Assembly: GCF_002117105.1 (NCBI RefSeq)
Contig: NZ_CP019343.1
Span: 1,240,001-1,304,000 of the forward strand
DNA: 64,000 nucleotides
From: Oceanicoccus sagamiensis
GTDB taxonomy: Bacteria > Pseudomonadota > Gammaproteobacteria > Pseudomonadales > Dasaniaceae
Reading direction: 5' to 3'
The notes under the pieces are model-generated. The model ran no database searches. It saw only the letters and a program-made list of their open reading frames with translations, and was not told the origin of the DNA. How positions within the stretch are numbered: position 1 is the stretch's first letter; the number at the start of each line of letters is the position of its first letter. Below are positions 1,953-19,130 of this stretch, piece after piece. The position numbers and the translations under genes are program-made.

Positions 1953-3691
1953 TTACAGCAAAAAGTATAAACTCAGCAATTGAGTCAGCAATAAAGTACC
2001 CGCCACCACCTTCCAAAATAATAACGGATCCCTGTCAGCCAAGGGCCGAAAACCCACTTCCAGATATTTCTCGTTCGGATGTTGTAACTCATAGACCAAT
2101 TCAGAGATATCCTGATGGCGACGCTCCGGACTATAGCGCAATGATTTTTTCAGTGCGCCATCAATCCACACCGGCACCAAGGGATTTAATTGGTAGCTGG
2201 GGTATAACGGGTATTCAGAAAATCCTGCTGGCTACGGCATTGCTCAAACTTTTCACCAAAGGGTAATTTACCCGTTAACATCTCATAGCTAATCACCGCC
2301 AAGGAAAAAATATCTGACTGATAGCTTAAAGGCTTATGCAAAGTATGCTCTGGTGCAGAATAGCTGGCCGTACCCAGAGCAATATCTTTTTCTATCGGGC
2401 TATTAATTTCAGCAATGCCCGCCACCCAACAAGAACCAAAATCTATAATTTTTACCACCCCATCCCGGTCGATAATAATATTGTCGGGCTTAATATCCTG
2501 GTGCAAAGTTTCACGCCGATGAAAGGCTCGCAAACCTTTGCCAATTTGATCCACCAGATAAACCACTTCCTGTACTGCGGGTTTGGGGTTTTCTTTAATC
2601 CATTGGCTTAGGGTTAAGCCATCAATATATTCGGTTAGATAATACAAGCAGCTTTTTGTGCGCTGATGCTCTACCACCTTAACCACATGACTATTATTAA
2701 CCCGGCTACCGATCCAGCTTTCCATCACAAAGCGCTCAATATAGGCGGGGTCATCGGAAAAATTAACCGAGGGAGTTTTCATGCAATACTGCTGGCCGCT
2801 TTGCTGGTCCTTGACTAAATATAACTGGCTACGGGTGCTGGCATAAATTTCCCGCACAACTTCGTAGCCGTCAATCACCATGGCTGAGCTTAAAAAAGGC
2901 GGAAAAGGCAATGCGGTTAATTTTGATACGACATCATCAACCTGCTGGTCGGGTAATTTATCAATACGAAGAATCTGGCAGCTTAAGTTATCGTCACTGC
3001 CATTGGCCAAAGCGCTATCAATAATTTTCTGGCTGGCCTGCTCATAGTCACCCGCACAATCTATAATAAGTTGGATAATGGTTTTTTTGCCAATAAAATC
3101 ATGCACACCATCCGTGGTCAAAATAAAGATATCACCCACTTCCAACTCCGCCTGCTGATAATCAACATCCAGATTAATATCCAGCCCCATGGCGCGAGTC
3201 AGATAAGATTGATGCTCTGAAATAGCGACGGCATGATCGCGGCTTAATTGTTCTAAGTCATCAGCACGCAAACGATAAACACGACTATCGCCCACATGAA
3301 AAATATGTGCGCCATGGGATTTAAAAATGACTGCACTTAAGGTGGTCAAATAGCCTTTGCGCTCATCGGCAAAACGCTGGCTCTGGCCATATAGCCAACG
3401 ATTTAATGCTGTTAATACTTTTTGTGAAGAATTTTTTACCGTCCAGGAATCTGGTGTGGAATAGTAATCCGAGAGAAAATTTTGAATACAGGTCTCACTG
3501 GCTTCCCTGCCCGCCTCAGCCGCACTAACACCATCAGCAATTAATGCCACTGCCCCTTTAGTCGTCATCACCTCACTATCGGGAATACGAATACCAATAG
3601 AATCTTCGTTAACGGCCTTAATACCGGCACTGGTTGCCTGCCCCACACTGAGCTGAAGCAGGCTGTTTAAATGTAAGGCGGGCTGCTTCAT
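1953..3691 (-). CDS. Bifunctional PP2C-type phosphatase / Ser-Thr protein kinase, membrane anchored (frameshifted as read)
   Basis: An N-terminal PP2C phosphatase (about residues 1-250: NEDSIGI, ALIADGVS, HVGDSRVYRL, TTDGVHD, SDDNLS) is joined to a Ser/Thr kinase (about 270-530). The kinase has the ATP-binding Lys in YCMKTPS, the catalytic loop HQDIKPDN, the metal-binding DFG and SAPE. The usual glycine-rich loop is not evident (REIYASTRSQLYLV). As read, the frame ends at 2186 after RYTPATN. One added base near 2192 joins it to LNPLVPVWIDGALKKSLRYSPERR and a C-terminal membrane helix (FWKVVAGTLLLTQLLSLYFLL) ending at 1953, giving about 579 residues, normal for this family. The start overlaps the stop of the VOC gene (ATGA), so the two are probably translationally coupled. 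The signal it responds to is unknown. Confidence 0.88.
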
Positions 3692-8937: not shown

Positions 8938-9942
8938 ATGAATAATGCTGTAAAACCCACACTGATTGACCGGTTTAACCGCCAAGTTGACTATGTTCGA
9001 CTGTCGGTGACTGACCGCTGTGACTTTCGCTGTGTTTACTGCATGGCGGAGGATATGACCTTTGCGCCCAGAGCCGAAATCCTGACGCTGGAAGAATTGG
9101 GCCTAATTGCCCAGGCCTTTGTTGAGCTGGGGGTAAAAAAAATTCGCCTAACGGGTGGTGAGCCTTTGGTCCGGCAGAATGTCATGTCACTGGTAGACCA
9201 TATCGGCCAACTCGATGACCTGAATGAGTTGACCCTGACCACCAACGGATCACAACTAAGCAAGCAGTCTAAGGCACTCTATAATGGTGGCGTTAAACGG
9301 ATCAATATCAGCATTGATAGTTTAAAACCGGAGCGGTTTAAGACCATCACCCGTACGGGCGATCTTGAAACCGTGTTACAAGGTATCGATGCCGCTATTG
9401 CCACTGGTTTTAAACGGATAAAACTGAATGCTGTTATTTTAAAAGGCCGCAATGAGGACGAAATTATTGACCTGGTGAATTTTGCCCGGGATAAAAACGT
9501 CGATATTTCTTTTATTGAAGAAATGCCTCTGGGCTTAATCGACGAGCATAACCGCGCTTTAAGTTTTTGTTCCAGCGATGAAATTCGTGAGACCGTTTCC
9601 GCCCATTATCCTCTCACCTCCAGCGATGAAACAACCGGCGGCCCTTCCCACTACTACACCATGGCCGATAGCGACTCGAGAATTGGTTTTATCTCGCCCC
9701 ATAGCCATAACTTCTGCCATCTGTGTAACCGGGTTCGGGTTACCGTGGAAGGCCGCTTGCTACTCTGCCTTGGCAATGAACATTCTGCGGACTTAAGGGC
9801 GGTATTAAGAGCCAACCCTGGTGCGATAGAACCTCTCAAAGATGCAATTATCGCAGCCATGGACCTTAAACCTGAAAAACACCATTTTAACCTGGACGAA
9901 GAGCCGGATATTGTTCGCTTTATGAATATGACCGGAGGCTAA
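8938..9942 (+). CDS. moaA: GTP 3',8-cyclase MoaA
   Basis: MoaA is the radical SAM enzyme that rearranges GTP in the first step of molybdenum cofactor synthesis. The 334-residue protein has the N-terminal cluster motif CDFRCVYC, the SAM-binding GGEPLV, the C-terminal cluster cysteines (HLCNRVRVT and LLLCLG) and the essential C-terminal Gly-Gly. No other moa gene is adjacent, so the rest of the pathway must lie elsewhere. A short membrane-protein gene and a cupin gene follow closely on the same strand. Confidence 0.96.
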
Positions 9943-9960
9943 TTTTGCGGAGCATTGTTG

Positions 9961-10305
9961 ATGAGCAGCCCTACTAAAGCGGTTTTACTCTCTGGTTTGA
10001 TTTTCCCCGGCGCAGGCCACCTCTACCTGAAGTCTTACCCCAAGGCGATTTCACTAGTACTGCTTGTTGTTATTTGCCTGGGCTTTTATATCGCAGAAGC
10101 GATCAAACAGTCGCAAACGGTTATCTCGCAGATCGATGCTTCAAACACACCGTTAAGCGAAGAAGAAATCACCGCACTGATTTACAAATCCGTTGAAAAT
10201 ACTGATACCACCATGATCGCAGCGGTATCCTTTACCCTGATTGGCTGCTGGGTGTTTGGCGTCATTGATAGTTACCGACTGGGCAAAAAATCCAACCATG
10301 GATAA
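9961..10305 (+). CDS. Small membrane protein, unknown function
   Basis: This 114-residue protein has an N-terminal hydrophobic hairpin (KAVLLSGLIFPGAGHLYLKSY then AISLVLLVVICLGFYIAEAI) and a second hydrophobic segment near the C-terminus (MIAAVSFTLIGCWVFGVIDSYRL). The LSGLIFPGAGHLYL motif resembles small TM2/DUF5683-like proteins, but I do not recognise a named family. The ATG at 9961 is used because GCGGAG lies upstream; two TTG codons precede it in frame. It overlaps the next gene by 8 bases, so the two are probably co-translated. Confidence 0.75.
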   Translation: MSSPTKAVLLSGLIFPGAGHLYLKSYPKAISLVLLVVICLGFYIAEAIKQSQTVISQIDASNTPLSEEEITALIYKSVENTDTTMIAAVSFTLIGCWVFGVIDSYRLGKKSNHG

Positions 10306-10789
10306 ACAACATCTTATCGCAGCGCTGCAACTGGAACCCCATACTGAGGGTGGCTACTACCGTAGGACCTATTGTTCCGAAAAAGCAGTAACGACTGCCA
10401 ACGGTTCAGAAAGAGCGCTGCTGTCTTCTATTTATTATATGCTGTGCAGTGATAGCCCTATCGGTTTTTTCCATCGCAATCAATCCGATATTATTCACTA
10501 CTGGCACAGTGGCTCAGCACTGACTTATTATCTGGTGGATCCTGAGGGCAATTTTTCCTCTCACCGATTAGGGCCAGATCTGGCCGCAGGTGACAGTTTT
10601 CAAATGACGGTGCCGGGGGGATACTGGAAAGCCACCTTGCTGGAAAACGGTGACTATGGATTATTATCGGAAGCGGTTGCACCGGGTTTTGATTATGCCG
10701 ATATGACGTTGGCCAAACTCGAAGAATTACAACGGGACTTCCCCAAGCTTGCCGAAAAAATTGATCTAAAGCGCTTCTGCAAATTCTGA
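10298..10789 (+). CDS. Cupin domain protein (DUF985 family)
   Basis: This 163-residue single-domain cupin has the family signature LEPHTEGGYYRRTY near the N-terminus, SSIYYMLCSDSPIGFFHR and DIIHYWHSGSALTYYLVDPEG in the middle, and FQMTVPGGYWKATLL towards the end. The His and Glu residues of the cupin motifs suggest a metal or sugar-nucleotide pocket; the family has been compared to epimerases and isomerases, but no reaction is settled. The ATG at 10298 overlaps the preceding gene's end, and upstream residues in frame are not part of the family. Confidence 0.85.
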   Translation: MDKQHLIAALQLEPHTEGGYYRRTYCSEKAVTTANGSERALLSSIYYMLCSDSPIGFFHRNQSDIIHYWHSGSALTYYLVDPEGNFSSHRLGPDLAAGDSFQMTVPGGYWKATLLENGDYGLLSEAVAPGFDYADMTLAKLEELQRDFPKLAEKIDLKRFCKF

Positions 10790-10847
10790 TGGGGCAGTGT
10801 CATGGTACACTGATAGCCACATCTCTAATCCATAACCGGGATGATCA

Positions 10848-11789
10848 ATGACCAAAGATTCTCCACTAATGATATCAGCCGACAATATTCGCAAGGGTTT
10901 TGATGCTCTGGGTTATATTGCCAGCACCGATATCGCTACGGCCATTTATCTGGCCTACCAATTGGAAAAGCCCATATTAATTGAGGGCCCGCCCGGCGTT
11001 GGCAAAACTGAACTGGCTAAAACAGCGGCGGAATATCTCAGTCTGCCACTGGTACGGCTACAGTGCTATGAAGGGCTGGATGAAGCCAAAGCCCTGTATG
11101 AATGGAAGTACGGCAAGCAATTACTGTATACACAGGTATTAAAAGAGCAGCTCGGGGATATTTTAAAAGGCGCCAAAGGTTTAGCCCAATCGGTTGAACG
11201 GCTGCATGATTTTGGTGATATTTTTTATTCAGAAGATTTTTTAGAGCCGCGACCGCTACTCAAAGCACTGCGAGAGAAACAGGGCTCGGTATTGCTCATT
11301 GACGAAATCGACAAAGCCGATTATGAATTTGAATCTATGTTACTGGAAATTTTATCGGATTACCAAGTCTCGGTACCGGAAATTGGCACTGTCAAAGCAC
11401 AATCAAAACCTCTGGTATTTTTAACCTCCAATAATACGCGGGATATCAGCGATGCCTTAAAGCGCCGCTGCCTGCACTTATATATCCCCTTCCCCAGCCA
11501 AGCCCTTGAAAGCCGCATTATCGAGAGCCGAGTACCTGAGGCACCGTTACAATTACGCGATCAGTTAGTCCAATTTATACAGCAGTTACGGCAATTAGAT
11601 TTAAAGAAATCCCCTGCGGTTAGCGAAACAATCGATTGGGCCAAAGCGCTGGTGCTGCTACATGCCGACAGCCTGAACAAAACGATTATTGAACAAACCC
11701 TAAACGTTGTATTGAAATTTGAGGAAGATATCGATACCACCAGGAATGAATTGGCCAACCTGCTACGCCAACTGGAAAAACTACCTTAG
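10848..11789 (+). CDS. MoxR-type AAA+ ATPase
   Basis: This 313-residue AAA+ ATPase belongs to the MoxR/CoxD group, a chaperone class that works with a von Willebrand factor A partner to insert metals or mature protein complexes. Walker A is EGPPGVGKTELAK (about residue 45), Walker B is SVLLIDEIDKAD, sensor 1 is FLTSNNTR, and an Arg-rich element ALKRRCLHLYIPFP follows. The VWA gene begins 5 bases after the stop, so the two form an operon. This matches the CoxD-CoxE pairing known beside CO dehydrogenase genes, but no such genes lie here. Confidence 0.9.
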   Translation: MTKDSPLMISADNIRKGFDALGYIASTDIATAIYLAYQLEKPILIEGPPGVGKTELAKTAAEYLSLPLVRLQCYEGLDEAKALYEWKYGKQLLYTQVLKEQLGDILKGAKGLAQSVERLHDFGDIFYSEDFLEPRPLLKALREKQGSVLLIDEIDKADYEFESMLLEILSDYQVSVPEIGTVKAQSKPLVFLTSNNTRDISDALKRRCLHLYIPFPSQALESRIIESRVPEAPLQLRDQLVQFIQQLRQLDLKKSPAVSETIDWAKALVLLHADSLNKTIIEQTLNVVLKFEEDIDTTRNELANLLRQLEKLP

Positions 11790-11794
11790 CCATT

Positions 11795-13177
11795 ATGCAA
11801 GCCAAGCTGCTGGACTTTATTACTTCTTTAAGAAGCCATGATATCAGGATCTCTACATCTGAAAGTCTGGATGCCATGCGAGTGTTGGCACTGATTGGAT
11901 ACCATGACCGCGCAGTGCTTAAATCTTCCCTCGGCATAACTCTGGCAAAAACCCACGAAGAAAAAATTATCTACGACCGTTGTTTTGAATTGTTTTATGG
12001 TGGAGACAGGCTGGATATTGCCACCACAAAGGAAACGCAAGAAAAAGAAAACCGAAAAATTAGCAGTGACATTAACTATGATATAGCTAACGACAGCACT
12101 ATTCAGGAAGCAATAAACTCTCCACTGGTACAACGCCTACTGGAAGATAGTCCCGTTAAACTTAGCGCAGCGATTGCACAGGCCAGTGCCGAGCTACCTA
12201 CTCAGGAGCTTCGCTATTTTACCCAAATAGGCCTTTATTCACGTAAGCTATTGGATGCCATCAATTTTTCAGAGATTGAAGATAGCATGACGAAACTACG
12301 CAGCATTGAAACTGACAATGCTGATTTTATGATCGATATCTTGCAAAACAAAAAGCAACAGCTTCGTGTGTTGGCCAAACAACAGATAGAGCAACAGTTT
12401 TTACTGACCGCAAATGCAGAAGGCAAAAAGCTCCGGGAAAACACTCTACGCAATGCGCGACTATCCAACCTTGAGCGACAACACTTTAGCCAACTACAAA
12501 CACTGATTAGAAAATTGGCCAAAAAATTGTCTGCCCGCCATTCGCAGCGTCTGTATATTGAAAAACGTGGCAAGCTTGATGTAGCAAAAACCTTGCGCAA
12601 AAATATTCATCACGATGGTATTCTTTTTGAAACCTACTGGAAGAAAAAACGCAAAGACCAACCTAAAGTGATTGCACTGTGCGACGTAAGCGGCTCAGTC
12701 TCCGCCTATGCCAAATTTTTATTATTATTTCTCTATAGTTTAAATGACGTGCTGCCAAAAATTCGCAGCTTTTGTTTTTCTAATCGCACCGGCGAAGTCA
12801 CTGACCTGTTTACTAACGAAGAGGCTGCTGCTGCCATTGAAGCGGCCTTTGAACAATGGGGACAGGGCTCCAGTGACTATGGGCAATCGCTGGTCGACTT
12901 TGCTGAACTATGCCTTGATGATATTGACCATAACACCACCCTGATTATTTTGGGGGATGCCCGCAATAATAATGGCGAGGCCCGGCTGGATATTTTGCAA
13001 AGCATTTACAACCGCGCCAAACATGTAATCTGGCTAAACCCTGAACGGAGAATTAATTGGGGCAGTGGTGATTCAGAAATGCGCCGCTATCAAACTGCCT
13101 GCCACTTTGCGACGGAATGCCAATCCCTGCAACAACTGGAACGGGTGGTTGACCAGTTACTAAAGCTGATTCGCTAA
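11795..13177 (+). CDS. VWA domain protein (CoxE-like), MoxR partner
   Basis: This 460-residue CoxE-like protein has a C-terminal von Willebrand factor A domain. The metal-ion-dependent adhesion site is visible as VIALCDVSGSVSAYAKF (DxSxS, about residue 295), with the later Asp in TTLIILGDARNNN. The N-terminal half is helical and charged, as is usual in the family. It probably acts as the substrate adaptor of the MoxR ATPase upstream. The client is unknown; the downstream neighbour is nsrR on the other strand. Confidence 0.88.
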   Translation: MQAKLLDFITSLRSHDIRISTSESLDAMRVLALIGYHDRAVLKSSLGITLAKTHEEKIIYDRCFELFYGGDRLDIATTKETQEKENRKISSDINYDIANDSTIQEAINSPLVQRLLEDSPVKLSAAIAQASAELPTQELRYFTQIGLYSRKLLDAINFSEIEDSMTKLRSIETDNADFMIDILQNKKQQLRVLAKQQIEQQFLLTANAEGKKLRENTLRNARLSNLERQHFSQLQTLIRKLAKKLSARHSQRLYIEKRGKLDVAKTLRKNIHHDGILFETYWKKKRKDQPKVIALCDVSGSVSAYAKFLLLFLYSLNDVLPKIRSFCFSNRTGEVTDLFTNEEAAAAIEAAFEQWGQGSSDYGQSLVDFAELCLDDIDHNTTLIILGDARNNNGEARLDILQSIYNRAKHVIWLNPERRINWGSGDSEMRRYQTACHFATECQSLQQLERVVDQLLKLIR

Positions 13178-13178
13178 A

Positions 13179-13607
13179 CTAACTGGCATCATGCCAGATA
13201 AGTTTTTGGGTCTCACTGTCCACCAGATCCGCCAGGGTATATTGATCAAACACGGCAATAAAAGCCTGGCTGGCTTCAGCTAATATCCCTTTAAATTGAC
13301 AGCCTGGCAGTAATATACAGCGCGGCGTAGTGCAATCCACCAGATCGTTTAGCGGCTCCATCAACCGAACCAGCTCCCCCACACCAATATCCTCTGCCGG
13401 CCGCCCCAGACTAATACCACCGCCCCGGCCACGCCGGGAAAGGATAAAGCCCTCATTGGCCAGTTTATTCACGATTTTTGACAGGTGGTTGGCTGACAAG
13501 CCAAATTGCTCGCAGATTTCACGCACGCTCACCAGCGCACCCGCTGGGCGCGAGGCCAGATAAATCATGGTTCGCAGGGCAAAATCGGTTTGACGGGTCA
13601 GGTGCAT
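13179..13607 (-). CDS. nsrR: Nitric-oxide-sensing Rrf2-family repressor NsrR
   Basis: This 142-residue Rrf2-family regulator has a winged helix at the N-terminus (MHLTRQTDFALRTMIYLA, GLSANHLSKIVNKL, RRGRGGGISLGRP). The iron-sulfur ligands are Cys92, Cys97 and Cys103, in the C-x4-C-x5-C spacing of NsrR and unlike the spacing of IscR. NsrR binds DNA when its cluster is intact and releases it when NO destroys the cluster. It is divergent from a truncated haemoglobin gene, with two matching operators between them, so the target is evident. It ends one base after the VWA gene's stop. Confidence 0.93.
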   Translation of the reverse strand: MHLTRQTDFALRTMIYLASRPAGALVSVREICEQFGLSANHLSKIVNKLANEGFILSRRGRGGGISLGRPAEDIGVGELVRLMEPLNDLVDCTTPRCILLPGCQFKGILAEASQAFIAVFDQYTLADLVDSETQKLIWHDAS

Positions 13608-13677
13608 AGATCTTAACTGTTAGGGTTATCAACAATAAAAACCAAGCATAAACTGAATTAAAGCTGGACACACTATA

Positions 13678-13700
13678 AATATGCATTTAATATGCACCTT
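13678..13700. promoter_or_regulatory. NsrR operator 1
   Basis: The half-sites ATGCATTT and ATATGCAC lie within an A/T-flanked 23-base inverted repeat. It agrees at 20 of 23 positions with the E. coli-type NsrR consensus AA-G-ATGCATTT-A-AAATGCAT-C-TT as I recall it. It is about 50 bases upstream of the haemoglobin start, where a repressor would block transcription. Confidence 0.8.
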
Positions 13701-13704
13701 ATTA

Positions 13705-13727
13705 AACATGCATATCAAATACATATT
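13705..13727. promoter_or_regulatory. NsrR operator 2
   Basis: A second, weaker copy of the inverted repeat (AACATGCATAT then AAATACATATT) starts 27 bases after the first, agreeing at about 18 of 23 positions with the consensus. The tandem spacing of under three helical turns suggests cooperative or independent binding over the haemoglobin promoter. Sequence match only. Confidence 0.65.
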
Positions 13728-13750
13728 TGACTGAGAAGGAAGATACAACG

Positions 13751-14107
13751 ATGAGCACACTTTACGAACGTTTAGGCGGTGAAGAAGCGGTTGATGCAGC
13801 GGTAGATATTTTCTATGACAAGGTTATCGCCGATGAGCGGATCAGCGACTATTTTATCAATCTGGATATGGTCGCCCAGGCCACCAAGCAGAAAAACTTC
13901 CTGACGATGGTGTTTGGCGGCCCCAGCAACTATGGCGGCAAGGATATGCGCTCAGGCCACGCCCACCTTGGCCTTAATGAAGAGCATTTTGATGCGGTGG
14001 TAGAGAATTTGGCGGCCACATTGCAGGAACTGAATGTGGCGGAATCTGATATTAATGATGTCGCAAATATTGCCAATAGCGTTAAGGATGATGTGCTTAA
14101 TCGGTGA
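13751..14107 (+). CDS. Truncated haemoglobin, group I
   Basis: This 118-residue globin (MSTLYERLGGEEAVDAAVDIFYDKV) has the proximal haem His in SGHAHLGLNEEHFDAV and the group I length. Truncated haemoglobins bind O2 and NO, and many dioxygenate NO to nitrate. Its place behind two NsrR-type operators and beside nsrR argues for a role in NO detoxification or sensing. The ATG at 13751 is used because the N-terminus matches the family and AAGGAAGA lies upstream; an in-frame upstream ATG at 13727 falls inside the second operator. Confidence 0.92.
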   Translation: MSTLYERLGGEEAVDAAVDIFYDKVIADERISDYFINLDMVAQATKQKNFLTMVFGGPSNYGGKDMRSGHAHLGLNEEHFDAVVENLAATLQELNVAESDINDVANIANSVKDDVLNR

Positions 14108-14470
14108 TTTTGGGGCCTTTTAGACTAGTAGAGAAGTGAGCAAGGGCTTGTGTTTCCGGAGCCGTCGGCAGGCAGATCTTTGCTCCTGCAATCTCTGCAT
14201 CACCGTCATCCCTGGCAGCGACAACAGCTGCCGAAGAGCGGCCAGAGATGGCAAAAAGCGTGCTCAGGAAACTCCTTCCTACCTCAGCCAGCTTCCACTC
14301 TTCTATCACAAAGCCACTAAAACACTTCAAAAACCACTTCCAAGCCAATGAATTAATTAAAAAAATCCTTGCCTTGCACCACAGGTCACTCTTATTATTG
14401 CCTTCCAAGTGATAGGCGGTTTTTTAACCGACCCTACCGATTCATCAGCCAATAATAAGCAGGCCCTGCG
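14108..14470. other. Gap without a recognisable gene
   Basis: About 360 bases follow the haemoglobin gene. Open frames on both strands here have no family-like sequence. A small hairpin GCGGTT-tttt-AACCG lies near 14417-14431. I see no clear promoter, RNA gene or repeat. Confidence 0.5.
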
Positions 14471-14923
14471 ATGACCACTTGGAATTACCGCGTCATAAGA
14501 AAAAACTGCGCGAACACCCGAGAAGTCACATACCAAATCCACGAAGTCTACTATCTGGCAGACGGCAGCATCGACTGCTGGAATCACACCCCCGTAGAAC
14601 CTCTGGGAGTGAGCGAGCCCGGCCTGCGCAATGATATTCAATCCTTTCTGGGCGCCTTTAGGCAGCCAGTGTTGGAAGAGCGCTATATCAATGGCAAAGC
14701 CCGGTTGGTTGCCGAAAGAATGAATGAGCCTGGCAAGGACTTGCAGGCGGACTATGTCAGCAAAACCACCAGAGCCTCGGGTTATATCAACCAGATTCTC
14801 GGCAACCACCTGCTGCTAAAACAAGAACCCAGCTTACGCCAGGCCTATGACAAAGTTGATCAGGCTCTGGCCGAGTTACACGATATTGTTAACAGCAAAC
14901 ACTATCGCTCTGAAACGGTTTAA
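14471..14923 (+). CDS. Hypothetical protein, 150 residues
   Basis: I do not recognise this protein. It is soluble, with no signal peptide or membrane segment. The N-terminal 45 residues (WNYRVIRKNCANTREVTYQIHEVYYLADGSIDCWN) look like a beta-rich small domain. The C-terminal part from about 90 to 150 is helical (LGNHLLLKQEPSLRQAYDKVDQALAELHDIVNSKHY). No Shine-Dalgarno is obvious before the ATG. It is convergent with the thioesterase gene, 4 bases from its end. It is most likely real because the frame is long and has normal composition. Confidence 0.65.
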   Translation: MTTWNYRVIRKNCANTREVTYQIHEVYYLADGSIDCWNHTPVEPLGVSEPGLRNDIQSFLGAFRQPVLEERYINGKARLVAERMNEPGKDLQADYVSKTTRASGYINQILGNHLLLKQEPSLRQAYDKVDQALAELHDIVNSKHYRSETV

Positions 14924-14927
14924 ACTC

Positions 14928-15389
14928 TTATTCATACCAGCTATTAGGCACCTTAACCGCAATAATCTCTGCCGTAGCACAGACTTCACCACCTGATAAT
15001 AGCTGGCAACTCACCTCAGTCTTTTTCTCCGCTGTGCTAACGATCTCCGCCGTTAATTCAACGGGCTGGTCAACCGGCACTGGCTTTTGATAGCTCACTG
15101 CCATATGGCCGGTGGCATACCACATCATCTCCCCCTCCCCCACATCACGGCCTGCGCGATAATAGGCATCACCCAGCGCCGCACAAATGCCGTGGCAGTC
15201 GAGGATCGTCGCCTGTATACCGCCATTCAAAAAATGTTTTGGTCCCGCATTATGGTGCGCCGCGGGAATAAAAGTCGCTACCGTAATACCATCTTCACGG
15301 CGGTAACTTTTAAGTTGTAAGCCCTGCTCATTCTCCGGGCCACAGCCATAACAATGGTTGTGTTGCATTTTGTCCTGAATCGCTTGCAT
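14928..15389 (-). CDS. Hotdog-fold thioesterase (PaaI-like)
   Basis: This 153-residue PaaI/YbgC-superfamily protein reads HNHCYGCGPENEQGLQLKSYRREDG, then FLNGGIQATILDCHGICAALGDAYYRAG, which contains the catalytic Asp region of the hotdog helix. TGHMAVSYQKPVPVDQPVEL and EVCATAEIIAVKVP finish the sheet. It probably hydrolyses an acyl-CoA; the substrate is unknown. AAAAGGAGCAAAGCG precedes the ATG at 15389. Confidence 0.85.
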   Translation of the reverse strand: MQAIQDKMQHNHCYGCGPENEQGLQLKSYRREDGITVATFIPAAHHNAGPKHFLNGGIQATILDCHGICAALGDAYYRAGRDVGEGEMMWYATGHMAVSYQKPVPVDQPVELTAEIVSTAEKKTEVSCQLLSGGEVCATAEIIAVKVPNSWYE

Positions 15390-15507
15390 CGCTTTGCTCC
15401 TTTTATAGGGAGCGGGTCCTTTTTATTCACCCGCGCATTGTCTACCCTAGCCAAGCTGTTATGCTCTGCTAGCACAGCCAATAAAGCAATAGACTATTGA
15501 GGCTACA

Positions 15508-16139
15508 ATGAACCGCATCAACACGTTTATCAAACAATCAATTATTGGTGGGCTACTGGTTATATCGCCCGTCGTGATTATCTTTTTTGCTATCCGCTGG
15601 GCTTTTTTTACCGTGGCGGAGTTCATTCAACCACTGGCGGCACCCATTGCCCGTAGCACCCAGGCCCCCGAAGCTGCCGTTGACCTATTAGTGATTATCT
15701 TAATTCTGGTGGGCTGCTTTATTGTCGGTAATATTGTCTCTACCAGTGCGGGTAAATGGCTGCACTCGCGCTTTGATAATACGCTGGCAAAGCTGGCCCC
15801 GGATACAATCTGGTCCGAGACATTATCCACCAATTTCTTGGTAACAATGCCAACTCTCCCTTTAGCCGGGGCGATGTGGCCAGAGCCAAACTGTTTGGTG
15901 CGGACGTGGCTACTGAGGCTACCGTAATTGTCACCAGCACCCATGACAATGGCTGGTATACCGTCTTTGTCCCCACTGGTCCCAACCCGACCTCTGGTAT
16001 GATCTACCACTTGCCCCCTGAACAAGTGGAACTTTTGCCAAATATTAAAGTCGATGAAGCACTGAGAACCATTATTGCCTGCGGCGCTGGCTCTGATGAA
16101 CTGTTCAAAAAGCAGACCCTTATTGATAAAACACTATGA
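15508..16139 (+). CDS. DUF502 family membrane protein (frameshifted as read)
   Basis: This inner-membrane protein of about 210 residues has two membrane segments: IGGLLVISPVVIIFFAIRWAFF and AVDLLVIILILVGCFIVGNI. As read, the frame breaks at about 15841 and ends at 15927. Adding one G to the GG at 15840-15841 restores FLGNNANSPFSRGDVARAKLFG and then DNGWYTVFVPTGPNPTSGMIYHLPPEQV and FRTIIACGAGS-type residues, the hallmark of DUF502. Function is unknown. Its stop overlaps the start of the glutaredoxin gene by 4 bases. Confidence 0.85.
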
Positions 16140-16495
16140 ACAAAAAAGCTAAAAACTTTATACCTTTAATTCTCTTTATTGCTGTATTTCTGCTCTTGCA
16201 AAACTGGTGGCGAGTCGATTTAGTACTCAATCCCATCAGCACAGAATCGATCAATGAGGAAGCGGTGGTTATGTACTCCACCAATTGGTGCCCCTACTGC
16301 CGTAAAGCGCGACTATTTTTTCGCCAAGCCAATATTCCCTATACGGAGTATGATGTTGAAAAATCAGCCCGCGCCTATGAGGAGTATCAACGTATCAGCG
16401 GCCGCGGCGTGCCAGTGATTGTTATTGGTGATAAAGTAGTACAAGGTTTTGACAAGCAGGCTATACGGCGCGCACTGGCAGATAACAACCCATAA
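16136..16495 (+). CDS. Membrane-anchored glutaredoxin
   Basis: This 119-residue protein has an N-terminal membrane anchor (about 7-25) and a glutaredoxin domain facing, by inference, the periplasm or the inner face of the membrane. The active site CPYC is at residues 52-55 (MYSTNWCPYCRKAR), followed by YTEYDVEKS and the cis-Pro motif RGVPVIVIGDKVVQGFD. It may reduce mixed disulfides or deliver electrons at the membrane. It is translationally coupled to the DUF502 gene. Confidence 0.9.
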   Translation: MNKKAKNFIPLILFIAVFLLLQNWWRVDLVLNPISTESINEEAVVMYSTNWCPYCRKARLFFRQANIPYTEYDVEKSARAYEEYQRISGRGVPVIVIGDKVVQGFDKQAIRRALADNNP

Positions 16496-16521
16496 GATAA
16501 ACCCACCAAGCAGGGACCATC

Positions 16522-16959
16522 ATGGACGTCACTCTATTTAATCAACACAGTATTCTTTTACCCGTTCTCGCGACACTGTTTCTCGGCTTTTTAATTTGGC
16601 TCACGCTCTTTGTCGCCCGCTTTAAAGTGATACTGGCCAAAGCTATTCCGGCCAGCGAGATGGCAACACCGGAATCTGTCCGCGAAAACATGCCCCCATC
16701 AGCCATGCAGCCAGTGAATAACTTCAATAATTTTTTTGAAGTGCCGATGATTTTTTTAGCCCTGTGTTTTTATTTATTTGTTACCGGCACAGCGGATAGC
16801 AACTACCTTAACCTGGCCTGGGTCTTTGTCGCCTTTCGCTATGTCCATACCCTTATCCATTGCAGTTACAATAATGCGATGCACCGCTTTATCAGCTACC
16901 TGATATCCTGTATTGCCCTGTGGACCATGCTCATTATGGCGATAATCAACGCGCTATAA
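16522..16959 (+). CDS. MAPEG family membrane protein
   Basis: This 145-residue protein has four predicted membrane helices and MAPEG features: ENMPPSAMQPVNNFNNFFEVPMIFLALCFYLF and VFVAFRYVHTLIHCSYNNAMHRFISY. Eukaryotic relatives are glutathione-dependent microsomal transferases; bacterial members have largely unknown substrates. The Arg and Asn residues of the RYVHTLIHCSYN loop are the family's usual glutathione-binding area. It lies 27 bases after the glutaredoxin gene and may share its transcript. Confidence 0.86.
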   Translation: MDVTLFNQHSILLPVLATLFLGFLIWLTLFVARFKVILAKAIPASEMATPESVRENMPPSAMQPVNNFNNFFEVPMIFLALCFYLFVTGTADSNYLNLAWVFVAFRYVHTLIHCSYNNAMHRFISYLISCIALWTMLIMAIINAL

Positions 16960-16982
16960 GAGCTCAGCGCCAAACATAGCCG

Positions 16983-17020
16983 ACAAAAGCCCTCGGCATT
17001 TGCCGGGACGGGGGTTTTGT
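16983..17020 (+). terminator. Terminator-like hairpin after the MAPEG gene
   Basis: ACAAAAGCCC pairs with GGGGTTTTGT (one G-T pair) around an inner CGGCA/TGCCG stem, ending in TTTTGTT. It suits the end of the DUF502-glutaredoxin-MAPEG unit. Confidence 0.55.
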
Positions 17021-17084
17021 TCTATGGTTTAGGGTGAACCTTTTTAGCCTCATCCAATAACTACGCAGTAAAACACGATAAGCC

Positions 17085-17288
17085 ATGGCCTACCGATGCA
17101 AAGATTGTAGCTACACACATAAGGGCTCGTTCAGCAGTGGTAAATGCCCAGCCTGTGGCTCTTTTAATATTTCCGGGGGCCCAAAAAAGCAGGGCCCGGA
17201 AGCCGATAGATACAAAAATCTTCGTCTGGTTTTATTGCTTGGATTATGGGGACTGCTGTTCTTTCTCTTATATGAAAAACTGCAATAA
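17085..17288 (+). CDS. Small zinc-ribbon protein with C-terminal membrane helix
   Basis: This 67-residue protein has two CxxC pairs in the first half (YRCKDCSY and KCPACGSFNI), the pattern of a rubredoxin-like or zinc-ribbon fold. A single C-terminal hydrophobic helix follows (RLVLLLGLWGLLFFLLYEKL). It probably is a tail-anchored inner-membrane protein that binds zinc or iron. No named family is obvious to me. It precedes the DUF1631 gene by 42 bases and may be cotranscribed. Confidence 0.75.
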   Translation: MAYRCKDCSYTHKGSFSSGKCPACGSFNISGGPKKQGPEADRYKNLRLVLLLGLWGLLFFLLYEKLQ

Positions 17289-17330
17289 ACCCACTGGCGC
17301 CAACTACCGGACCTGCTCAAAGAATTCTGA

Positions 17331-19130
17331 ATGACTAATACGCAAGCCATCCTGCTCGATATCAACTCCCTGCTTGCCGGGGAGTGGCCGCAATGTCTGG
17401 CACTGCTGACATACGCTTATCCGCTGTCTAACAATGACAATAAGCGTCCGATTGAGCATACGCATTTAATCGGTCTGCTTAAAAAAACGTCTGGCAGCAG
17501 CAATATTAGCAAAGCTATCGAAGCAGAACTTGAGCCCGTTGAAAGTCTGGATGGCGAGAGCTATGCCTGCTTAAAATTTATTGACCAATTATTCGACAAC
17601 TACCTTAAAAATAACAAACTGCATTCGGATATTCACCCCATGCTAAATCATTTTCGGGGTGAAAGTGCTATTGCCATGTTGCAACAAACCCTGCCCTGGC
17701 ATGAGAGTACGGGCTTAACTGCGCAGTTTAATAACCTCTACACCAATGCCATAGGCTGGCAGCCAGAACTGGGCCGTGCCGCTGAACGTTTTTACCATCA
17801 ACTACAAACCATCTTTAATGCATCTAGCGAAACCTCAGCAACCCCTGAGTCAACGCTGGATTCATTCAACGTTTTTTTCCAAAAAGAACAAGGGCGCATC
17901 CAAAAACTGGAAAAACGTTTGCACGATGCTGAGCTAGGTGCGCTGCATGCAAAACATGCCCAGCAATTAAGTGCCCGCACCTTAAATCAACACATGGCCG
18001 GGCAGCAGCTGCCTGCCTGCATCACTCAGTTTTTGCAAGGGCCATGGCGTGAATCTATGCGCCTGCTAATTATCAGCGATGGTAAAGACAGCCAAAACTG
18101 GCAAAAAATATTGCGCTTAACCGAAACTTTAATCTGGTCTTTTCAACCTATCAATGATGACATCGACAACCATCGGCAACATATTGTCAATTCAATTTCA
18201 GAACTCGCAGAGCAGTTGCACCAAACAACTATCGGCCTGCACCATAGCACGATGCTGGATGAAGAATTAGGTATCGTCGAGAAAGAGCACCTTAAAATAC
18301 TAAAAGGTGAAGCACTGGAATATCAAGCGTTTGAATTAATTGATAACACCGACCCACTGGTAAGCTCGCAAGTTTCTGTGAGTCAAAACCTGATTAAACA
18401 AGCTGCGGCCTATCATGAAGGTCAATGGTTTGAACTGCAAAACAGTGAAGGCACTACCCGGATTAAACTATCCCTAAAAATCACTCAGGCACAGCAACTA
18501 CTGTTTACCAACTTTCTTGGTATCAAAAAGGCTCAGCATAGCTTTGAGGAATTTGCCTATATGCTGTCTTCAAAAATCGCGATACCCATCAACTCCAGAG
18601 ACCCGTTTAAAGCCACTGGAGAAAAAATATTCAATTCATTACTGGAACGTTATACGCAGCAACAGCAGCAAGCCGCCAGCGATGCCGCCATTGAAGAAGA
18701 GATTCTCCGGCAGCAGGAAATCACCCGACAGGCGGCAAAAGACAAAGCCCTTAAAGAGGCCAAAGTTTTTGCTGAACAGCAAAAAGCCGCCAGAATTAAA
18801 GCCCAGCAGGAACAGCGAGCACAGGCTGAACGCCTGGCCACTGAACAACACAAGAAAGATGTCATCACACAATTAGCACAGCTACGAGTAGGCGCCGTCG
18901 TGATTTTTTATAATGACGCCAATCAAGGTGACCAATGTAAACTGGCCGCCATTATCCAGTCATCGAACGAGCATATTTTTGTCAATCGTGATGGCATCAA
19001 ACAGCACGCATTAAATAAACAGCAGCTCTCTGCACAGCTACTCAACGGAACCGCCAAAATAATTGACCCTGGCAGTGACTTTGAAAACACACTTGAGCAA
19101 GTGGTTAACAACCTAAGGACAAGGAAATAA
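17331..19130 (+). CDS. DUF1631 family protein
   Basis: This large 599-residue cytoplasmic protein is of the DUF1631 type. Recognisable segments are CITQFLQGPWRESMRLL with LTETLIWSFQPI (about 225-275), and the C-terminal VSQNLIKQAAAYHEGQWFEL, FTNFLGIKKAQHSFEEFAYML and VVIFYNDANQGDQCKLAAII, this last resembling a PilZ-like or SH3-like barrel. A Gln/Ala-rich coiled coil lies at about 440-515. It is shorter than the 700-800 residue relatives I know. The function is unproven. The PilZ gene starts 2 bases after the stop, which suggests a c-di-GMP link by operon. Confidence 0.85.
   Translation: MTNTQAILLDINSLLAGEWPQCLALLTYAYPLSNNDNKRPIEHTHLIGLLKKTSGSSNISKAIEAELEPVESLDGESYACLKFIDQLFDNYLKNNKLHSDIHPMLNHFRGESAIAMLQQTLPWHESTGLTAQFNNLYTNAIGWQPELGRAAERFYHQLQTIFNASSETSATPESTLDSFNVFFQKEQGRIQKLEKRLHDAELGALHAKHAQQLSARTLNQHMAGQQLPACITQFLQGPWRESMRLLIISDGKDSQNWQKILRLTETLIWSFQPINDDIDNHRQHIVNSISELAEQLHQTTIGLHHSTMLDEELGIVEKEHLKILKGEALEYQAFELIDNTDPLVSSQVSVSQNLIKQAAAYHEGQWFELQNSEGTTRIKLSLKITQAQQLLFTNFLGIKKAQHSFEEFAYMLSSKIAIPINSRDPFKATGEKIFNSLLERYTQQQQQAASDAAIEEEILRQQEITRQAAKDKALKEAKVFAEQQKAARIKAQQEQRAQAERLATEQHKKDVITQLAQLRVGAVVIFYNDANQGDQCKLAAIIQSSNEHIFVNRDGIKQHALNKQQLSAQLLNGTAKIIDPGSDFENTLEQVVNNLRTRK

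Follow-up and report, generated by a model that had tools for sequence, protein, structure and literature searches.

The stretch analysed here, 64,000 nucleotides of the Oceanicoccus sagamiensis genome (contig NZ_CP019343.1, positions 1,240,001 to 1,304,000; hereafter the window), contains two genes that diverge from a visibly AT-rich gap of 143 bp (13608-13750). One encodes a regulator of the Rrf2 family on the minus strand, which resembles the repressor NsrR, and the other a truncated haemoglobin (trHb) on the plus strand. Two tandem inverted repeats of the NsrR operator type occupy the gap, and the components are collected in Table 1. The divergent pair and its two operators are confirmed as an observation. 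They likely form a self-contained switch with a single target, driving a trHb that would act as a nitric oxide (NO) dioxygenase; NO sensing, repression by paired dimers and NO dioxygenation are attributed by analogy with the respective protein families.

Table 1. Genes, operators and predicted promoters of the nsrR-trHb divergon (window coordinates)
Feature	Position	Strand	Remarks
nsrR, Rrf2-family repressor, 142 aa	13179..13607	-	putative ligands D8, C92, C97, C103; Pfam and NCBIfam models
Group I trHb (trHbN/GlbN type), 118 aa	13751..14107	+	PDB matches; Pfam Bac_globin
NsrR operator 1, AATATGCATTTAATATGCACCTT	13678..13700		2 mismatches; the predicted trHb promoter has its -10-like hexamer here
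NsrR operator 2, AACATGCATATCAAATACATATT	13705..13727		2 mismatches
Sigma-70-like promoter towards trHb (TGGACA-17-TAATAT)	13665..13693	+	consensus scan only
Weak sigma-70-like promoter towards nsrR (TTGATA-18-CATATT)	13689..13718	-	consensus scan only; lies across both operators

Operators were predicted as 23-bp sites with the consensus AANATGCATTTNAAATGCATNTT. The claim of the original prediction that both repeats fit the NsrR consensus is borne out, and the fit is far above chance. The starts of the two sites lie 27 bp apart, 0.01 sites with up to 3 mismatches are expected in the window, none of 100 shuffles of the window produced two, and 3 of 2000 shuffles of the gap held one or more sites at up to 4 mismatches. 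The pair also forms a larger dyad, with arms at 13677-13696 and 13709-13728 that are 90% complementary. A genome-wide search for further operators, proposed earlier as a check, has been run: over 4,472,079 bases in one contig, the sole matches at up to 3 mismatches are these two sites, and the reversed pattern used as control gave none. Applied to 145 genomes of the same genus, family and order (source included; designated by G numbers, G000 being the source), the same scan found matches in 53, while the reversed control matched in 14 of 145, and therefore single scattered matches arise by chance.

The regulator scores 113.9 bits with the Pfam Rrf2 model (cut-off 30), and NsrR is the top of the nine NCBIfam models listed for it (144.2 bits, ahead of RirA with 90.6 and IscR with 53.8). 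Its cysteines occupy positions 32, 92, 97 and 103. The last three, whose spacing had been taken as the mark of NsrR, are kept together with D8 and align with the best PDB match, 5n07, which we take to be Streptomyces NsrR; Asp8 is presumably a cluster ligand in that protein. The earlier assignment is supported. An NsrR-type Rrf2 repressor, with a predicted Fe-S cluster and DNA binding predicted to be released by NO, is supported. At the search threshold, IscR is the only other Rrf2 protein of the genome, and a second NsrR is accordingly rejected.

The globin belongs by its sequence matches to group I and not to groups II or III. Its closest solved relatives are the group 1 trHb 3aq5 (E 2.9e-34) and the cyanoglobins 2ksc and 1mwb, and Pfam Bac_globin gives 70.4 bits. 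Group I chains match with E values from 1.6e-15 (HbN) to 2.9e-34, versus 4.5e-5 for the group II HbO and 5.6e-9 for the Geobacillus trHb 2bkm, presumably also of group II. The key residues are Y22 (B10), Q43 (E7), K46 (E10), Q47 (E11) and H70 (F8), with helix positions assigned by a numbering that we assume to apply. The proximal His and Tyr B10 are kept in all eight trHbs that adjoin an nsrR gene among the genomes compared (see below). Y-B10, Q-E7 and Q-E11 align with 2ksc, and all eight have Lys at the position of its E10 His. Close to its C-terminus 2ksc has another His, which we assume to be the site of covalent haem attachment. Because Lys 46 stands in place of the distal His and the C-terminal-His stretch of 2ksc falls partly in an alignment gap, a pentacoordinate, non-covalently bound haem is likely in the window trHb. 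Three further truncated globins are encoded in the genome, two with best solved relatives that we take to be of group II type and one that matches solely a group III globin.

Other NO-handling genes were sought across the source genome. The absence of hmp and norV, asserted earlier, was upheld: the E. coli Hmp query gave no match at E up to 1e-30, and NorV gave rubredoxin-domain or size matches only, the positive control G121 returning a full NorV. An hmp gene as sole NsrR target elsewhere, the outcome named as adverse in the original prediction, was likewise not seen, the genome yielding neither an Hmp nor, at up to 3 mismatches, a further operator. A hidden Hmp is rejected, since the sole PF00042 globin is the N-terminus of a long open reading frame (ORF; at least 630 aa) with PAS-like repeats, as judged by eye. 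NorB was not found in the source genome with a model that scores NorB of relatives at 182-196 bits; the two COX1 proteins found instead were classed by eye, from their sequences and surroundings, as one aa3-type and one cbb3-type subunit, and a hidden NorB is rejected. RIC (dnrN) was not found in the source genome, with positive search controls as for hmp. NnrS gave no match in the source genome, but the control genomes gave none for this family either; the same Pfam model recognises the NnrS beside NsrR in G114. The PF00042 globin domain, at genome positions 2848481-2848792 (locus L005, with its upstream region), starts a 1049-codon open frame with PAS-like repeats, adjoined by two CheW-like ORFs (by eye), and perhaps represents a globin-coupled chemoreceptor.

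Among the 145 genomes, NsrR-like proteins are matched in 48 (51 matches), trHb in 51 at E up to 1e-8 and in 27 at E up to 1e-20, and Hmp in 42, full length in 39 (the reductase-half-only matches in G020, G093 and G125 are left out of the full-length set). nsrR adjoins this trHb in eight genomes: G000 (window), G001, G013, G020, G026, G072, G130 and G133. An operator with up to 4 mismatches lies in the relevant gap at all eight loci, such a site turning up in 1-4 of 2000 shuffles. No operator was present at any of 29 trHb loci without adjacent nsrR (21 close, 3 distant and 5 named contigs; flanks of 1.5 or 3 kb, many of the genomes being without an NsrR match), while all 6 linked loci of that list had one. 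The trHb proteins in two rows of these 29 (G127 and contig CALMIC010000070.1) are identical. From the 67 trHb match rows, 30 loci were fetched and two more rows read separately (G026 contig 22 and G133 contig 33); at E up to 1e-20, 29 of 33 rows were examined. Five further, distant trHb loci (L051-L055) were free of operators even with 5 mismatches allowed. The contrast recurs within one genus, where G013 and G091 both possess the trHb and a reductase, and G013 only has nsrR and the operator. The Fer2-FAD-NAD reductase gene lies directly downstream of the trHb in G013 and about 400 bp on in G133. In a Methylococcaceae locus (L047, 2992-4354), seen by eye, a trHb is followed immediately by a 2Fe-2S reductase-like gene and stands beside another helix-turn-helix-like regulator; no NsrR operator was found there at up to 5 mismatches.

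Whether the pairing arose once is not settled by the trees, in which gain and loss are indistinguishable. In the NsrR tree the proteins of G001, G026, G072 and G130 group together (support 98/87, and 87/79 in a smaller tree) and window NsrR is unplaced. In the approximately unbiased test its grouping with those four was not rejected (p 0.264), nor was its grouping with G001 alone (p 0.198). On the trHb tree the NsrR linkage needs 7 changes, a number as low in 249 of 500 label shuffles, and 2 of them are forced by well-supported branches. The NsrR frame of G100 is a fused ORF and is misplaced in the NsrR tree. For nine NsrR loci, which account for ten of the 51 matches, the flanks read extended no further than about 1.5 kb, and others are cut by contig ends.

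Other genes occupy the position beside nsrR elsewhere in the order, and operators of such loci adjoin Hmp, RIC and Hcp. nsrR adjoins hmp in nine loci, including the congener G004, which has the same layout (G093 has a partial hmp only), and RIC in G034. An operator beside nsrR lies upstream of NnrS in G114 (separated from it by a 94-aa ORF), of quinol-type NorB in G060, and in G024 of a 207-aa ORF followed by quinol-type NorB; the site in G031 is flanked by hmp and a DUF454 gene. In 19 of the 20 loci that carry a site with up to 4 mismatches, its neighbour is this trHb or a known NO gene, the exception being G054, where the neighbour gene is unassigned. Such a site is missing in about half of the NsrR-like loci, some of which may encode other Rrf2 proteins. 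An Hmp-like phmmer match near NsrR in G101, which has no Hmp in the Hmp search, was not counted. nsrR was also seen next to hcp, at a second G026 locus (L180, 1402-3601, with a 4-mismatch site between) and in G100 (L181); no operator was found in the G100 nsrR-hcp neighbourhood.

In 9 of these 20 loci, which were selected for carrying a site with up to 4 mismatches, another site with at most 6 mismatches lies 26-28 bp from the first, and none lies at any other spacing between 18 and 39 bp; shuffled flanks gave 0.018 second sites on average and at most 1. Since the nine paired loci cover hmp (G004, G016, G062 and G079), trHb (G000, G001 and G026), NnrS (G114) and NorB (G060) targets, this spacing is a property of the NsrR promoter and not of the target. 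For B. subtilis hmp, NsrR sites in tandem were predicted earlier (PMC1274295). No statement on a fixed NsrR operator spacing was found in the available part of that source, nor any paper on the topic by literature search.

Promoter matches suggest how the operators could act. A consensus scan of 1001 bases gave 4 sigma-70-like sites versus 1.4 in shuffles. The -10 element of the predicted trHb promoter falls inside an operator in G000 and G026 and touches the operator edge in G133. Autoregulation of nsrR is plausible because the weak match towards nsrR spans both operators; under the same rule, 6 of the 7 other linked loci showed no nsrR-ward promoter on that strand. Elsewhere, the [4Fe-4S] form of NsrR binds an 11-1-11 operator, and NO abolishes the binding (PMC4432287). 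In the window, holo-NsrR, with an Fe-S cluster on D8, C92, C97 and C103, would sit as two dimers on the two adjacent operators and block the trHb promoter, probably together with its own. Nitrosylation of the cluster by NO would make NsrR leave the DNA, so that the group I trHb is made, and this would oxidise NO with its bound O2 to nitrate until NsrR rebinds. The trHb, the only NsrR target seen in the genome, would thus hold the place of Hmp, quinol-type NorB, NnrS, RIC or Hcp in relatives; no reductase gene adjoins it that could serve as electron donor for the ferric haem. The sequences establish the gene identities, the operators and their uniqueness at up to 3 mismatches, the failure to find Hmp, NorV, NorB and RIC, and the conservation of the arrangement. 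The reading of the original prediction is supported overall, with binding to the DNA, induction by NO and the activity as NO dioxygenase as its predicted parts, and the trHb is probably the main NO defence of the organism.

Several observations count against this reading, and some of them speak for rival explanations. The likeliest rival concerns the globin: NsrR control may be right while the trHb is no catalytic NO dioxygenase but an NO-induced stoichiometric scavenger of NO or peroxynitrite, or an O2 handler, turnover being left to another enzyme. No reductase relative was found in the trHb neighbourhood scanned (window 9501-18000), unlike G013, G133 and Legionella, and a study of hexacoordinate globins found NO scavenging in vivo limited by haem re-reduction, with the qualification that any of them could scavenge given re-reduction (PMC2323109). 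The three other trHbs of the genome (four truncated globins in total) could, moreover, share the work. Yet the NsrR slot is held in relatives by Hmp or NO reductases, while Hmp, NorV and NorB were not found here, and the distal residues shared with cyanoglobin 2ksc, with the E10 His replaced by Lys in all eight linked trHbs, also speak for catalysis; a non-catalytic role is therefore considered unlikely. As for uniqueness, relatives carry sites with 4 mismatches, and the description as only target holds in the source genome at up to 3. Across the eight linked loci, no overlap of -10 element and operator was found in the five other than G000, G026 and G133, and the 26-28 bp pair is present in just three (G000, G001 and G026). 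Nor is the trHb enriched in genomes with NsrR (11 of 48 versus 16 of 97, p 0.37).

The regulator raises doubts of its own. Its 144.2 bits lie under the curated NCBIfam NsrR cut-off of 182, and it is therefore termed NsrR-type here and not certified as NsrR. It forms a long branch on NsrR trees and is 45% identical to the NsrR of the congener G001, though the two trHbs are 80% identical, and thus window NsrR evolves fast or has a different origin. These features would fit a regulator whose signal has changed to iron, redox or another Rrf2 function, with operators that are an inherited motif and a gene pair that does not respond to NO. The cut-off, however, looks too strict for the order, because four Hmp-linked NsrRs there (134-164 bits, versus 292.8 for E. 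coli NsrR) also fail it. Added to this, the three cluster cysteines and D8 are kept, the RirA and IscR models score much lower and the operators fit the NsrR consensus, which together make a changed signal improbable. A chance origin, with AT-rich intergenic DNA yielding two palindromes of NsrR type next to a Rrf2 gene that has nothing to do with them, might be argued from the composition of the gap and from the random single matches at up to 3 mismatches seen in roughly a tenth of genomes. The shuffles of window and gap, the genome-wide uniqueness and the conservation in 8 of 8 linked loci refute such an origin of the repeats, the odds of which we regard as negligible.

A wider proposal can be put forward for the order, though tentatively and with somewhat more doubt than confidence. 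The NsrR target slot would be interchangeable, and group I trHb would repeatedly have replaced Hmp as sole NsrR-controlled NO dioxygenase, the two being mutually exclusive in NsrR genomes. The divergon form would have shed its reductase and use a housekeeping electron donor, and NsrR promoters would share a dual-operator switch with a fixed spacing of 26-28 bp. Among the 48 NsrR genomes, full-length Hmp occurs in none of the 11 with a close trHb versus 19 of the 37 others (Fisher p 0.0017), by a test that ignores kinship and a count of 0/11 that depends on leaving out G020, a trHb genome with a reductase-half match. When all 145 genomes are counted, three (G015, G058 and G075) have both trHb and full-length Hmp (p 0.053, again ignoring kinship). 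Repeated replacement of Hmp and loss of the reductase may have occurred, and the trees do not resolve either.

The logic of an NsrR-controlled glbN is already known from a prediction for Legionella pneumophila, and what is found here is a modest new variant that is divergent, reductase-free and equipped with two operators. Rodionov et al. (2005) predicted glbN-lpg2536 as the sole NsrR target in Legionella, with NO oxidation proposed as the function (PMC1274295). The prediction is repeated in a review that considers the reductase of Legionella to be the probable electron donor of GlbN (PMC3820574). In both cases the globin gene is the only target with NsrR sites (here at up to 3 mismatches). 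The Legionella-type regulon is further marked by the lack of hmp, hcp, dnrN and nnrS, of which hmp and dnrN were not found in the source genome. The Legionella globin, however, shares an operon with a ferredoxin-reductase-like gene, a form found in relatives G013 and G133, whereas the window globin lacks such a partner and diverges from nsrR over two tandem operators. NsrR-hmp units of numerous proteobacteria, bacilli and Streptomyces likewise place the repressor beside the globin gene it controls and use an 11-1-11 bp inverted-repeat operator (PMC1274295; PMC4432287), and the S. coelicolor regulon is similarly small (hmpA1, hmpA2 and nsrR; PMC4432287). The window target differs from Hmp in being a single-domain 2-on-2 trHb without a reductase domain. 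Mycobacterial trHbN is also of group I, its similarity to the window trHb being modest (HbN E 1.6e-15); an M. bovis mutant without trHbN fails to oxidise NO to nitrate, and NsrR control is not reported in the available part of that source (PMC9686644). Literature searches on NsrR with truncated haemoglobins, as far as the sources were accessible, turned up no experimental test of an NsrR-trHb pair.

The next gene-like ORF on the plus strand after the trHb (14471-14923, 150 aa) has no Pfam match. Further on, two overlapping ORFs in different frames (15508-16139; 139 and 87 aa) resemble, by eye, one frame-interrupted membrane-protein gene, which we presume, again by eye, to be of DUF502 type; neither half matches Pfam at E 1e-5. 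A single 501-aa ORF at 2186-3691 combines PP2C phosphatase and protein kinase domains.

Regulator, operator and target make up a minimal unit, and the divergon offers a test case for two questions, namely whether a stand-alone trHb can be the main NO dioxygenase of a cell and what reduces it. Natural comparisons are at hand in the congener G004, which has NsrR-Hmp in the same layout, in G013 and G133 with their nearby reductase, and in G091, whose trHb-reductase pair lacks both nsrR and the operator. The spacing at which operators recur, in turn, gives a concrete prediction on paired NsrR dimers.
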